A stretch of 34,009 nucleotides of DNA from Candidatus Rokuibacteriota bacterium (GTDB taxonomy: Bacteria; Methylomirabilota; Methylomirabilia; Rokubacteriales; CSP1-6): contig QHSQ01000145.1 of the NCBI GenBank assembly GCA_003221615.1, positions 1-34,009 on the forward strand. The letters are read 5' to 3'. Made by a program: the position numbers and the translations under genes. Positions within the stretch are counted from its first letter, which is position 1. Each line of letters begins with the position of its first letter. The notes under the pieces were generated by a model. It ran no database searches, was not told the DNA's origin, and worked only from the letters and a program-made list of their open reading frames with translations. Shown in pieces: positions 21,878 to 34,009 of the stretch.

Positions 21878-22336
21878 TCAGTTCGGCCGTGGGGTCGGCG
21901 TGGCGGGGCCGAAGCGGAGGTACTTCTCGTCGATGGCGGCGCGGATCGCCGGCAGCGCCTTGCCCTCGCCTTTCATGCGCATCACGTCACGCGTGATGTC
22001 CAGGCACAGGGTTCAGGTCGCGGCGTGGCTCGTGAAGGTGACGAGCCCGTCCGTTTCGGCCTTCACGTAGCAGGACCGGTTCGACGAATGGCCGGAGCGG
22101 GCGCAGCCGCACGTGCACGGCATCCAGCGGAGCGTGTCGGCGTTGGCGGCGGCGAAGGCGTAGAGCCGAGCGGCGTCGCCCTTGGCGGCGAAGAGCGGTA
22201 GCTGGCCGCGCGGCACCGTCTGGTTCTCGTCGCCGATCTCGTCGACGGTGACCGGCTGCGCCTCGGCGCCGATCCACCAGATCACCCCGGCGGCCGCCAG
22301 CCCCAGGATCAGGAGGACGCCGATCACTCTGGTCAC
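21878..22336 (-). CDS. PCYCGC-like thiol protein, predicted selenoprotein (TGA = Sec108)
   Basis: The gene reads through an in-frame TGA at 22013-22015 to give 152 residues. An N-terminal membrane anchor or signal (VIGVLLILGLAAAGVIWW) is followed by a PCYCGC-like motif, MPCTCGCARSGHSSNRSCY (about 72-90). Next comes FTSHAAT-U-TLCLDITRDV, where family members have HAAGCxxC; the Sec thus replaces the first Cys of a CxxC pair. The 44 codons after TGA stay in frame and keep the family ending (EGKALPAIRAAIDEKY). A hairpin fitting the bacterial SECIS rules follows the TGA (separate entry). The GTG start at 22336 overlaps the TGA of the DUF1285 gene by 4 bases. It is probably a periplasmic redox or metal protein. 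If Sec is not inserted, a 107-residue fragment lacking the conserved tail would result. Confidence 0.82.
21980..21998 (-). promoter_or_regulatory. Bacterial SECIS-like hairpin for Sec108
   Basis: On the coding strand CAUCACG pairs with CGUGAUG (7 perfect pairs) around the loop CGUGA. The loop begins 21 bases after the UGA and has G as its second base, within the published bacterial SECIS limits (loop 16-37 bases downstream, G in the first two loop positions). Confidence 0.75.
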
Positions 22337-29742: not shown

Positions 29743-30168
29743 TTAACGCGACTCGCCGGTGGGAGGCTGGGGCTGGTGCCGGTCGAGGACCTTCGCCATC
29801 GCGCGCCCTTTGTCCGGATGCTCGTCCTTCAGGATTCCGTAGGCGTCGCGCCCCTCGTGACCCTCTGGCAGGTATTCGGTGATCGGCAGACCGTCGGATC
29901 TCACGAACAGCAAGCAGTGGCAATACTTGTACTTCTGCATCTCGTCGCACGCGCAGATCCAGCGGCGCAGCTTCGCCTCCGCGGCCGGATCCGGATAGAA
30001 GTTGCACGGACAGAGCGGCTTGCCGACTTGCTCGATGTGACGGGCCAAGCCCGTCACGACGGTCTCGGTCACGGCCCGGTCGGGATGCAGTGACGTGCCC
30101 GACTTCTCGGCGTACTTCCGCGCGTACGCCCACATCTTCTCGATGTTGCCGGCCGAGGGCTCTTGCAT
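29743..30168 (-). CDS. Ferredoxin:thioredoxin reductase catalytic-subunit-like protein
   Basis: A 141-residue protein with the full cysteine signature of the FTR beta subunit: LCPCNFYPDPAAEAKL, then WICACDEMQK and YCHCLLFV. In known FTR these residues bind a [4Fe-4S] cluster next to a redox-active disulfide, passing electrons from ferredoxin to a thioredoxin-like partner. All six motif cysteines are present. The ATG at 30168 has GAGGAGG five bases upstream, a strong ribosome site. It lies 13 bases after the predicted seleno-glutaredoxin gene and downstream of thioredoxin reductase, so the likely partner is that glutaredoxin. The variable alpha subunit of chloroplast FTR is absent here, as in many anaerobe-type relatives. 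Confidence 0.9.
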   Translation of the reverse strand: MQEPSAGNIEKMWAYARKYAEKSGTSLHPDRAVTETVVTGLARHIEQVGKPLCPCNFYPDPAAEAKLRRWICACDEMQKYKYCHCLLFVRSDGLPITEYLPEGHEGRDAYGILKDEHPDKGRAMAKVLDRHQPQPPTGESR

Positions 30169-30181
30169 GCCGCCTCCTCGA

Positions 30182-30418
30182 CTACGACGCGTTCAGCGCC
30201 GCGTCGATCGCGTTCGGGTTGAAGCCGGTGAGCCGCTTGTCACCGATGATGATCACCGGCAGGGACAGGAGGCCGAGCGCCATCAGCTCCTCGCGCGCCT
30301 TCGGGTCCTTCCCCACGTTGCGCTCGGTGAACGGGATGCCCTTTTGCGATAGATACTCCATCGCTTTGTGGCAGGGCCCTCACCCGACGTTGCTGTAGAC
30401 GGTCACCGATACGGGCAT
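30182..30418 (-). CDS. Glutaredoxin-like selenoprotein (UGPC active site)
   Basis: Reading TGA at 30380-30382 as selenocysteine gives a 78-residue thioredoxin-fold protein: MPVSVTVYSNVG-U-GPC, then HKAMEYLSQKGIPFTERNVG. It continues to LLSLPVIIIGDKRLTGFNP, with the conserved cis-Pro in LPVIIIG. Sec13 takes the place of the first Cys of a CxxC. Only 12 codons precede the TGA and 65 follow in frame with intact glutaredoxin/NrdH features, so a simple stop is unlikely. A SECIS-like hairpin follows (separate entry). The ATG at 30418 has AAGGAG upstream. It lies between trxB (44-base gap) and the FTR-like gene (13-base gap). Stop-at-TGA gene calling would miss this gene or begin at a later Met. Confidence 0.85.
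30346..30364 (-). promoter_or_regulatory. Bacterial SECIS-like hairpin for Sec13 of the glutaredoxin
   Basis: On the coding strand GCGAUGG pairs with CUAUCGC (six Watson-Crick pairs and one G-U) around the loop AGUAU. The loop starts 22 bases after the UGA and has G as its second base, again within the bacterial SECIS rules and almost the same geometry as the hairpin at 21980. Confidence 0.75.
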
Positions 30419-30462
30419 GTGATCGCTCTCCTTGGGTCTAGAGTCGCCAGCATGATAGCGCA

Positions 30463-31401
30463 CTAGTGGGTGTCCGTGGCTTCCAGGTAGCGCTCCGCCT
30501 CGAGCGCCGCCATGCAACCGCTCCCGGCCGCCGTCACCGCCTGGCGGTACGTGGAGTCCTGCACGTCGCCGGCCGCGAAGACTCCGGGCACGCTGGTCTG
30601 CGTGGTGCCCGGCTTGACCTTGATGTAGTCGTTCGGCAGCAGCTCGACCTGACCGCGGAAGATCTCCGTGTTCGGCTGGTGACCGATCGCGACGAAGAGC
30701 CCGTCCACCGCCCGCTCCTGGCGCGCGTCGGTCTTCACGTCCTTCAGGCGGACGCCCGTGACCTTACCCTGGGCGACGTCGAGAATGTCTTCGACCACCG
30801 TGTTCCAGATGAACTCGATCTTCGGGTTCGTGAGCGCGCGCTCCTGCATGATCTTAGAGGCGCGGAGCGTGTCGCGCCGATGCACGACGTCGACCCGCCG
30901 GCCCAGGCGCGAGAGATAGAGGGCCTCCTCCAGCGCGGAGTCCCCGCCTCCGACGACCATGATGTTCTGGTCCTTGAAGAAGAAGCCGTCGCAGGTCGCG
31001 CAGGTCGAGATGCCGCGCCCCATCAGCTTCGACTCGGCCGGCAGACCGAGCAGCTTCGCCGAGGCTCCGGTGGCGATGACGATCGTGTGCGACTCGAAGG
31101 TCTGCGCGCCGGCCTTGACGACGAACGGACGCGTCGAGAGATCCACGGCCGTCGCGTCCTCGGCGAGGATCTCGGTGCCAAAGTGAGCGGCCTGCTTCTG
31201 CATCGTCTCCATCAGCTCGGGGCCCTGGATGCCCTCGACGAACCCCGGGTAGTTCTCGACGAGCGTCGTCAGCATGAGCTGGCCGCCGTACTGCGCCCCC
31301 GTGAGCATGAGCGGCGCGAGGTTGGCGCGCGCCGCGTAGATCGCCGCCGTGTACCCGGCCGGCCCCGATCCGATGATGATGATCCTGCGTGTGGTGGCCA
31401 T
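30463..31401 (-). CDS. trxB: Thioredoxin reductase (NADPH, low-Mr type)
   Basis: A 312-residue FAD enzyme. The FAD motif is [19 protein letters not shown] at the N-terminus, the redox-active pair is CATC in [13 protein letters not shown] (about 135-140), the NADPH motif is [16 protein letters not shown], and the second FAD motif is [21 protein letters not shown]. It reduces thioredoxin or glutaredoxin-like proteins with NADPH. The seleno-glutaredoxin and FTR-like genes follow directly, so it is the first gene of a thiol-redox operon. Start ATG 31401 gives the full N-terminal strand. The HAD gene ends 24 bases upstream on the same strand and may share the transcript. Confidence 0.95.
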
Positions 31402-32172: not shown

Positions 32173-32573
32173 CAGAGTGGCTTTCTCCCGGCGTAGCCTT
32201 CGTCCAGGCCGTGCCAGTGGCGGATCTCGCGCTCGCCGTATCTCCAGCAGAGGTTGACCTCACGTCCGTCGCGGAGGTGCAGGAAGTCGACCAGGCCGAG
32301 GCCGAGGTCCTTGGGCGCCCCGCCGAGCTCGACGATCTCGCCGAGACCCCGACGGATCTCGCCGGTCAGCCGCTCGACCTTGTCCTTGTCAGCGCGCCAG
32401 GCCCGACGGTCGAGAACGCCGCCGCCGGCCATGGCGATCCGCTGCTGCTCGGCCTGCATCCGCTCTTGCGTCGCGCTCACCTCGGCGTGCGCCGACATCA
32501 CGGGCTCCATGATGCGGGCGAGCTCGGGGATCAGCGCCTCCACGTCGGCGACCGTGAAGTAACGCTCAGCCAC
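32172..32573 (-). CDS. DUF2203-family protein
   Basis: A 133-residue soluble, largely helical protein. It starts RYFTVADVEALIPELARIM, has a coiled-coil-like middle, then the family ending EIVELGGAPKDLGLGLVDF and VNLCWRYGEREIRHWH. The function is unknown. It overlaps LutC by 8 bases upstream and the HAD gene by one base downstream, so the three are cotranscribed. Confidence 0.82.
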   Translation of the reverse strand: MAERYFTVADVEALIPELARIMEPVMSAHAEVSATQERMQAEQQRIAMAGGGVLDRRAWRADKDKVERLTGEIRRGLGEIVELGGAPKDLGLGLVDFLHLRDGREVNLCWRYGEREIRHWHGLDEGYAGRKPL

Positions 32574-33309
32574 GGATGCCCTGCTCCACGAAGACCGCGT
32601 GCACTTCCTTGGGCCCGTGAACGCCCCGCGTCAGCGTGAGCTCGATATCGGCCGTTCGGCTCGGGCCCGTGATGAAGTTGATGACGGCGCCGCGCGCCGG
32701 CGGCGTGCCGTCGCCGTGCCACGCCTCGAGCAAGACGCCGACCTGGCGCAGCGATTCGACCAGCGCGGTTCGGTCGAAGACCGCGATGTGACACGGCGGC
32801 AGCAGCGACGTCGAGCGCGGCCGTCCGGCGCCGGACACGAGGACCAGGGTGCCCGTCTCGGCGATAGCGAGATCGACACCGGTCAGCCCGAGGTCGGCGC
32901 GAGCGGCAATCGTCCGGAGCCGCTCGCGCTCCGCGACGGCGACCGGCTCCGCGGCGGGCATCTGATGGACGTCGAGACCGCGGGCCTCCAAGGCCTGCGT
33001 CAGGTCGGCGCCGATGGCCGAGGCATGCCAGGTCACCAGCTCGCGCGCCTCACGCCCGTGCGCGATCCGCGCGACGGTGGCCGGGACCATGTCGACGGAC
33101 GCGACCTCGTAGAACACGCCGCCCACGCTCTCGAACTCGCGGCGGAACGCGTCCAGCGTTTCGGGCCACCGCTCGGCGAGCTCACGCCGGATCGTCTCCG
33201 CCTCGGCGGCCGGATGCTCCGGGCGCCTGGCGGAGGAGGCCGAGAACCGGGCCGGCGTTCGCCGCACCTGCTCGCGGATCCTTCCCAGGAACTCGGCCTT
33301 CGTGGTCAC
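32566..33309 (-). CDS. lutC: LutC/YkgG-family lactate-utilisation protein
   Basis: A 247-residue protein with the LutC (LUD) domain: VTWHASAIGADLTQAL, then LGLTGVDLAIAETGTLVLVSG and SLLPPCHIAVFDRTALV, ending with FITGPSRTADIELTLTRGVHG. The TGVDxAIAETGTL and TGPSRTADIE segments are diagnostic. In Bacillus and relatives LutA, LutB and LutC oxidise L-lactate to pyruvate with iron-sulfur electron transfer. It overlaps lutB by 4 bases and DUF2203 by 8. ATG at 33309 is fixed by the overlap. Confidence 0.92.
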   Translation of the reverse strand: MTTKAEFLGRIREQVRRTPARFSASSARRPEHPAAEAETIRRELAERWPETLDAFRREFESVGGVFYEVASVDMVPATVARIAHGREARELVTWHASAIGADLTQALEARGLDVHQMPAAEPVAVAERERLRTIAARADLGLTGVDLAIAETGTLVLVSGAGRPRSTSLLPPCHIAVFDRTALVESLRQVGVLLEAWHGDGTPPARGAVINFITGPSRTADIELTLTRGVHGPKEVHAVFVEQGIRG

Positions 33310-34009
33310 GCGCGAAGGTCCTTGTCCGAGGCCCAGCGCTCCTGAAACGTTCGCGAGGCCACCGCCGGCAGGTCACGCGTGCGCGTCCACTCGCCAAGGA
33401 AGAGCGGCAGGCGGCTGACGCGCCCGCTGCCGGCGAAGGGCCGCTGGAGGAGTCGGCCAGCCCCCGCCGCGAGGCGGTAGAGCCGCGGGTGCCGGAGCAA
33501 TCCTGAAAGCAGCTTGAACGCGACGCGCTCGGTCCACGGCGCGATCTTCCGGTCGCCCACCTCGCGTCGCAGGTCGATCAGCATGCGCGGAATGTCGATG
33601 CGTACGGGACACGCATCCGCGCACGCGCCGCAGAGCGAGGAGGCGTGGGCGAGATCCTTGACCGCGGGCGTGCCCTCCATCATGGCGGTCAACAGGATGC
33701 CGATCGGGCCGGGGTACGTGTAGCCGTAGGCATGGCCGCCGATCTGCCGGTACACGGGGCACACATTCAGGCAAGCGCCGCAGCGCAAGCACGAGAGCGC
33801 CTCGCGCAGCGGTCCGCCGATCTGCGCGATGCGGCCGCCGTCGAGCAGCACGAGGTGGAACTCCTCGGGGCCCTCGAGCTCGCCCCCACGTCGCGGTCCC
33901 TGGACCAGCGAGGTGTAGACGGAGAGCTTCTGGCCCGTCGCGCTCTTCGCGAGGATGGCCAGGAACACCATGAGGTCCGTCAGCGAGGGCACGACCTTCT
34001 CGACCCCCA
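33306..34009 (-). CDS. lutB: LutB-family iron-sulfur protein (partial, N-terminus missing)
   Basis: The C-terminal ~234 residues of a LutB/YkgF-type protein. Two ferredoxin-like motifs are present: CLRCGACLNVCPVY and CGACADACPVRIDIP, each able to bind a [4Fe-4S] cluster. GHAYGYTYPGPIGILL between them is typical of the family. The frame stays open to the right edge (VEKVVPSLTDLMVFLAILAK), so the gene begins outside the window, and the GTG near 33992 is not the real start. The C-terminal DUF-type tail ends WASDKDLRA. lutA is expected just beyond the edge. Overlap with lutC is 4 bases. Confidence 0.9.
   Translation of the reverse strand, partial: GVEKVVPSLTDLMVFLAILAKSATGQKLSVYTSLVQGPRRGGELEGPEEFHLVLLDGGRIAQIGGPLREALSCLRCGACLNVCPVYRQIGGHAYGYTYPGPIGILLTAMMEGTPAVKDLAHASSLCGACADACPVRIDIPRMLIDLRREVGDRKIAPWTERVAFKLLSGLLRHPRLYRLAAGAGRLLQRPFAGSGRVSRLPLFLGEWTRTRDLPAVASRTFQERWASDKDLRA

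Follow-up and report, generated by a model that had tools for sequence, protein, structure and literature searches.

Bacterial seleno-glutaredoxins with a UxxC active site (PF00462; for example WP_010943784) have been listed previously (PMC13188914, PMC9312934). In the published bSECIS model, the UGA is followed at a spacing of 16-37 nt by a hairpin with a stem of 4-16 bp and a loop of 3-9 nt that has a G in its first two positions (PMC13188914). FTR variants that contain Sec have been described from marine metagenomes (PMC2398784). All three subjects, seleno-glutaredoxins, the bSECIS model and FTR with Sec, are covered in the literature (PMC13188914, PMC9312934, PMC1794560, PMC2398784). The Methylomirabilota are reported as Sec-rich, one of their assemblies being cited with 63 predicted selenoprotein genes (PMC13188914), and seleno-glutaredoxins and bSECIS elements are already known. 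Candidatus Rokuibacteriota are also treated as the order Rokubacteriales of this phylum (PMC8780371).

Here we describe a locus within a stretch of 34,009 nt from this group (the window). Like the described bacterial seleno-glutaredoxins, the predicted protein combines a Glutaredoxin domain with Sec as the first residue of the UxxC site and a bSECIS downstream. Compared with their description rather than with the sequence of WP_010943784, the window gene differs in belonging to a separate Rokubacteriales clade, in its UGPC motif, in its linkage to ftrB, and in that no glutathione synthetase was found.

The glutaredoxin gene and its hairpin

The original prediction of a seleno-glutaredoxin gene hidden by an early in-frame TGA had the coordinates right. 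The gene lies on the minus strand, with its ATG at 30418 and its TAG at 30184-30182. A strong ribosome site had been claimed, and a Shine-Dalgarno-like AAGGAGAG lies 5' of the ATG. With TGA read as Sec, the product is MPVSVTVYSNVGUGPCHKAMEYLSQKGIPFTERNVGKDPKAREELMALGLLSLPVIIIGDKRLTGFNPNAIDAALNAS.

Features of the locus and of a second predicted selenoprotein gene in the window
Feature	Position	Strand	Details
Predicted seleno-glutaredoxin gene	30182..30418	minus	78 aa, Sec13, motif UGPC, stop TAG; orthologues in relatives
In-frame TGA, predicted Sec codon 13	30380..30382	minus	aligned with the N-terminal catalytic Cys in solved structures of glutaredoxin/NrdH; TGA in 17/17 closest sequences
Shine-Dalgarno-like AAGGAGAG 5' of ATG	30426..30433	minus	sequence
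Predicted bSECIS hairpin	30346..30364	minus	7-bp stem 30364-30358 with 30352-30346; loop AGUAU 30357-30353; folding, covariation, synonymous suppression
FtrB-like gene (FeThRed_B)	29743..30168	minus	CxC motifs CPC, CAC, CHC all Cys; 13 nt downstream of seleno-glutaredoxin
trxB, thioredoxin reductase	30463..31401	minus	TIGR01292, 410 bits; 44 nt upstream of seleno-glutaredoxin, same orientation
Predicted PCYCGC/CYCXC-family selenoprotein gene	21878..22336	minus	TGA 22015-22013; start GTG inferred; ends in TGA

The read-through product passes the cut-off of Pfam Glutaredoxin (PF00462; E 3.3e-15, 56.5 bits, cut-off 22.9) but no finer NCBIfam cut-off. Its best NCBIfam match is GlrX_YruB (TIGR02196; 75.7 bits, below the curated cut-off of 88.55), and the NrdH redoxin model (TIGR02194) gives 56.5 bits, below the curated cut-off of 85.75; both families have Cys where the window protein has Sec. 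NrdH redoxins in the PDB match at E-values of ~1e-10 to 1e-11. The claim that the TGA occupies the active-site position of a glutaredoxin is borne out by the Pfam match and by alignment with solved structures, since codon 13 falls on the first active-site Cys of PDB 7c10 and of the NrdH structure 4hs1. As judged from the sequence, U13-G-P-C16 aligns to the template Cys, and a cis-Pro segment LPV lies at 53-55. Because the sequence matches solved Grx and NrdH structures, we regard the Glutaredoxin/NrdH fold as settled.

The comparison set consisted of 59 related genomes, from which the closest glutaredoxins were taken one per genome. TGA is kept at the Sec codon in every one of the 17 closest sequences (60-99% identity, the window gene counted), and TAA, TAG or Cys occurs there in none of them. 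The more distant glutaredoxin paralogues of the 59 genomes also nearly all have TGA at the same codon. The downstream frame is intact and under purifying selection (pN/pS 0.32); a normal stop followed by degraded sequence, which would have spoken against the original prediction, did not occur among the relatives. The second Cys of the UxxC dithiol site is present in all aligned sequences, and the motif variants within the Rokubacteriales clade comprise UGPC, UGAC, UVPC and UTGC. The named public copies come from Candidatus Rokuibacteriota assemblies. The source genome is a fragmented assembly with an estimated contamination of 8.55%, and same-genus assemblies agree with it.

The hairpin with the loop AGUAU is present as originally described. 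It reads GCGAUGG-AGUAU-CUAUCGC, starts 15 nt past the TGA and has its loop start 22 nt past it, which agrees with the published bSECIS model (7 bp, AGUAU, 22 nt). The folded stretch has a z-score of -2.86, none of 200 shuffles folding as well. Covariation among relatives, suggested at the outset as a check, was found: in 30 distinct sequences, paralogues included, 99.0% of cells are paired as compared to 85.5% in shuffles, and double-sided changes occur in 25 cells as compared to 8.7 (0 of 500 shuffles reached this). Sliding the partner strand destroyed the signal. Variation is greatest at the pairs in which a wobble base meets the middle base of a different codon. The Leu wobble base tracks the facing codon (CUA with Met AUG or Val GUA, CUG with Thr ACA, CUU with Lys AAA), and so does that of Ser (UCG with Ala GCG, UCU with Glu GAG); Val GUG is opposite Ser UCA in the one paired case. 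In the seven hairpin codons, 15 close orthologues show a synonymous difference of 0.096, approximately four-fold below the 0.384 further downstream. On this comparative sequence evidence, the hairpin is selected as an RNA and would designate UGA as Sec from within the coding sequence. It offers a clean case of an RNA hairpin holding Leu and Ser wobble bases that are silent in the protein. An internal start at the ATG within the hairpin was considered and rejected, as orthologues have GTA or ACA there and the product would be devoid of the active site.

Sec machinery and other Sec genes

An active Sec system had been proposed for this organism, and the genes for one were found in its genome. 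selA (586 bits) and selB (378 bits) lie side by side, and their contig also has a tRNA-Sec (anticodon UCA), ~1.1 kb upstream of selA. selD is also present, and its own frame contains a TGA (SCAGU) with a strong hairpin after it (L065, contig C106). A selA match was found in 58 of the 59 genomes.

Two TGA/hairpin pairs of near-identical geometry had been offered as support for this system. The second pair, at 22015 (minus strand; 14 nt spacing, 7 bp, 5-nt loop), is real, but matching geometry is weak evidence by itself: at 67% GC, the exact geometry was found four times in the window versus 1.3 expected by chance, and for a looser geometry 5.0 occurrences would be expected. We therefore rejected hairpin geometry as evidence on its own; the argument for a Sec gene is carried by homology and covariation, and not by two matching geometries. 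Scanned against Rfam at gathering thresholds, the window gave no match. A covariance model made from the hairpins of the glutaredoxin genes gave strong matches in this genome only at its three glutaredoxin loci; since it missed other selenoprotein genes, it is unusable as a selenoprotein census of the genome.

The second pair lies in a gene for a protein of the PCYCGC family (PF13798, 87 bits), which scores 54 bits, below the cut-off, on NF041379 'CYCXC family (seleno)protein'. TGA is kept in all 20 PCYCGC/CYCXC sequences where the motif was found, and an earlier listing already counts the family among selenoproteins (OS_HP4; PMC13188914). Two further glutaredoxin genes of this genome have TGA at the active site. 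We noted a seleno-glutaredoxin with an in-frame TGA (USSC) fused to DinB_2 (L064; contig C115, ~5130-4340, minus strand; PF00462 45.7 and PF12867 41.8 bits), and a seleno-glutaredoxin paralogue (UQSC) that has a hairpin of this kind and scores below the YruB and Uxx-star cut-offs (L063; contig C121, ~1214-1011, minus strand).

We consider it almost certain, from these sequence comparisons, that the window gene encodes a genuine selenocysteine glutaredoxin with UGA codon 13 decoded as Sec, and that the protein is real although most annotation pipelines would lose the gene; ordinary gene finders would truncate it at the internal stop codon.

Neighbouring genes and the source of electrons

The gene had also been said to fit an operon gap. 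This understated its surroundings: FtrB, downstream, is the neighbour that is conserved, and trxB is linked only within the genus. The FtrB-like neighbour scores 80 bits against PF02943, and ftrB is present in 14 of the 59 genomes, which are exactly those with a glutaredoxin at least 67% identical to that of the window; it is absent from the other 45. In all 14 genomes, it adjoins the seleno-glutaredoxin gene directly downstream (usually within ~15 nt, sometimes overlapping) and encodes the three CxC motifs CPC, CAC and CHC. The co-occurrence has a Fisher p-value of 5e-11, which is overstated, the genomes being related. Three genomes with a 61-62% identical glutaredoxin are without ftrB, and the partnership is therefore not obligatory in the wider clade. 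One genome of the same genus (G003) has neither the seleno-glutaredoxin orthologue nor ftrB, as though the two had been gained or lost together. The window's FtrB shares its three CxC motifs with the FTR catalytic subunit (PF02943, a group that includes FtrB double-selenoprotein NF041072), but it is all-Cys, Sec residing in its putative redoxin partner instead. As no FTR variable chain (PF02941) was found in this genome, FtrB here is not part of a classical FTR.

The trxB gene fared less well as a conserved partner, since its linkage is confined to the genus and that of FtrB persists beyond it; in another genus, a CoA-transferase-like gene (assigned by eye) takes the upstream place of trxB. 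Upstream of the trxB cluster, at 32566-33992 on the minus strand, lie LUD-domain and LutB-like iron-sulfur genes.

On the comparative evidence, SelB and tRNA-Sec would decode UGA codon 13 as Sec under the direction of the bSECIS 15 nt downstream. From the alignment, the product would be a Grx-fold, NrdH/YruB-like dithiol redoxin with Sec13 as the nucleophile and Cys16 as the resolving residue; by homology, Sec13 may attack the disulfide of a target protein, upon which Cys16 would resolve the intermediate. Both the linkage of the genes and an apparent inability to make glutathione point to FtrB as the protein that may return electrons to the redoxin: no glutathione synthetase (TIGR01380) scored over the cut-off in the 59 genomes and the closest orthologues always adjoin ftrB, which makes FtrB the likely reductant. 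We modestly favour the reading that the oxidised selenenylsulfide is reduced by 4Fe-4S FtrB with ferredoxin-type electrons rather than by glutathione, TrxB being a possible second route in the genus. More tentatively, and with some doubt, we propose that FtrB and the seleno-glutaredoxin may form a dedicated two-protein module, in which a ferredoxin-fed 4Fe-4S reductase that has no FTR variable chain would reduce a selenoredoxin, in bacteria that have no glutathione synthetase.

The strongest competitor is reduction mainly by NADPH-thioredoxin reductase, as for NrdH, with FtrB being a client or a parallel enzyme. The position of trxB 44 nt upstream in the same orientation within the genus would fit this, as would the presence of NrdH redoxins among the best solved relatives and the alignment of the C-terminal GF-P segment with that of NrdH. 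However, the trxB linkage is lost outside the genus where the FtrB linkage stays, and we regard this route as rather unlikely. Membership of Pfam Glutaredoxin, and the description of bacterial Sec-Grx proteins as using glutathione (PMC13188914), would suit a classical glutathione-dependent glutaredoxin with Sec. This is quite improbable given the result for glutathione synthetase in the 59 related genomes, which glutathione import or another enzyme might nevertheless compensate for.

The window protein also resembles the Uxx-star families (NF041212, NF041114, NF041211), whose small, Grx-like (seleno)proteins carry an N-terminal Sec and for which a review suggests metal-ligand roles (PMC13188914). 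Its Sec could then bind a metal or metalloid instead of serving a disulfide redoxin. The score of 43.9 bits for NF041212 Uxx_star lends this some credit, but it lies below the cut-off of 66, and the protein is below every other Uxx-star cut-off as well. Moreover, the second Cys of the dithiol site is kept, whereas Uxx-star family 1 is listed as UxxT, and the gene sits among disulfide reductases. Such a role is therefore very improbable.

The two readings that dispense with Sec have a negligible probability. A real stop, whether the gene is a pseudogene or the TGA an error of sequencing or assembly, would agree with where gene finders end the frame and with the fragmented source assembly. Against it, separate assemblies place a TGA at this codon in all closest sequences, the downstream protein is conserved and the hairpin covaries. 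Likewise, the frame would be open under any altered code or suppressor tRNA inserting an ordinary amino acid, but TGA is also a normal stop that ends several orthologues and the CYCXC gene, the genome has the full Sec machinery, and the TGA aligns with the catalytic Cys.

The seleno-glutaredoxin is thus a known kind of protein, and it is its partnership with FtrB that is possibly new. If true, the two-protein module would amount to an electron route from ferredoxin to a selenoredoxin of which no description was found in the literature searched, an earlier report of the pair being possible. With the strict pairing of the seleno-redoxin and FtrB, a reductase that would otherwise be an orphan in this uncultured, Sec-rich lineage gains a partner that can be tested.
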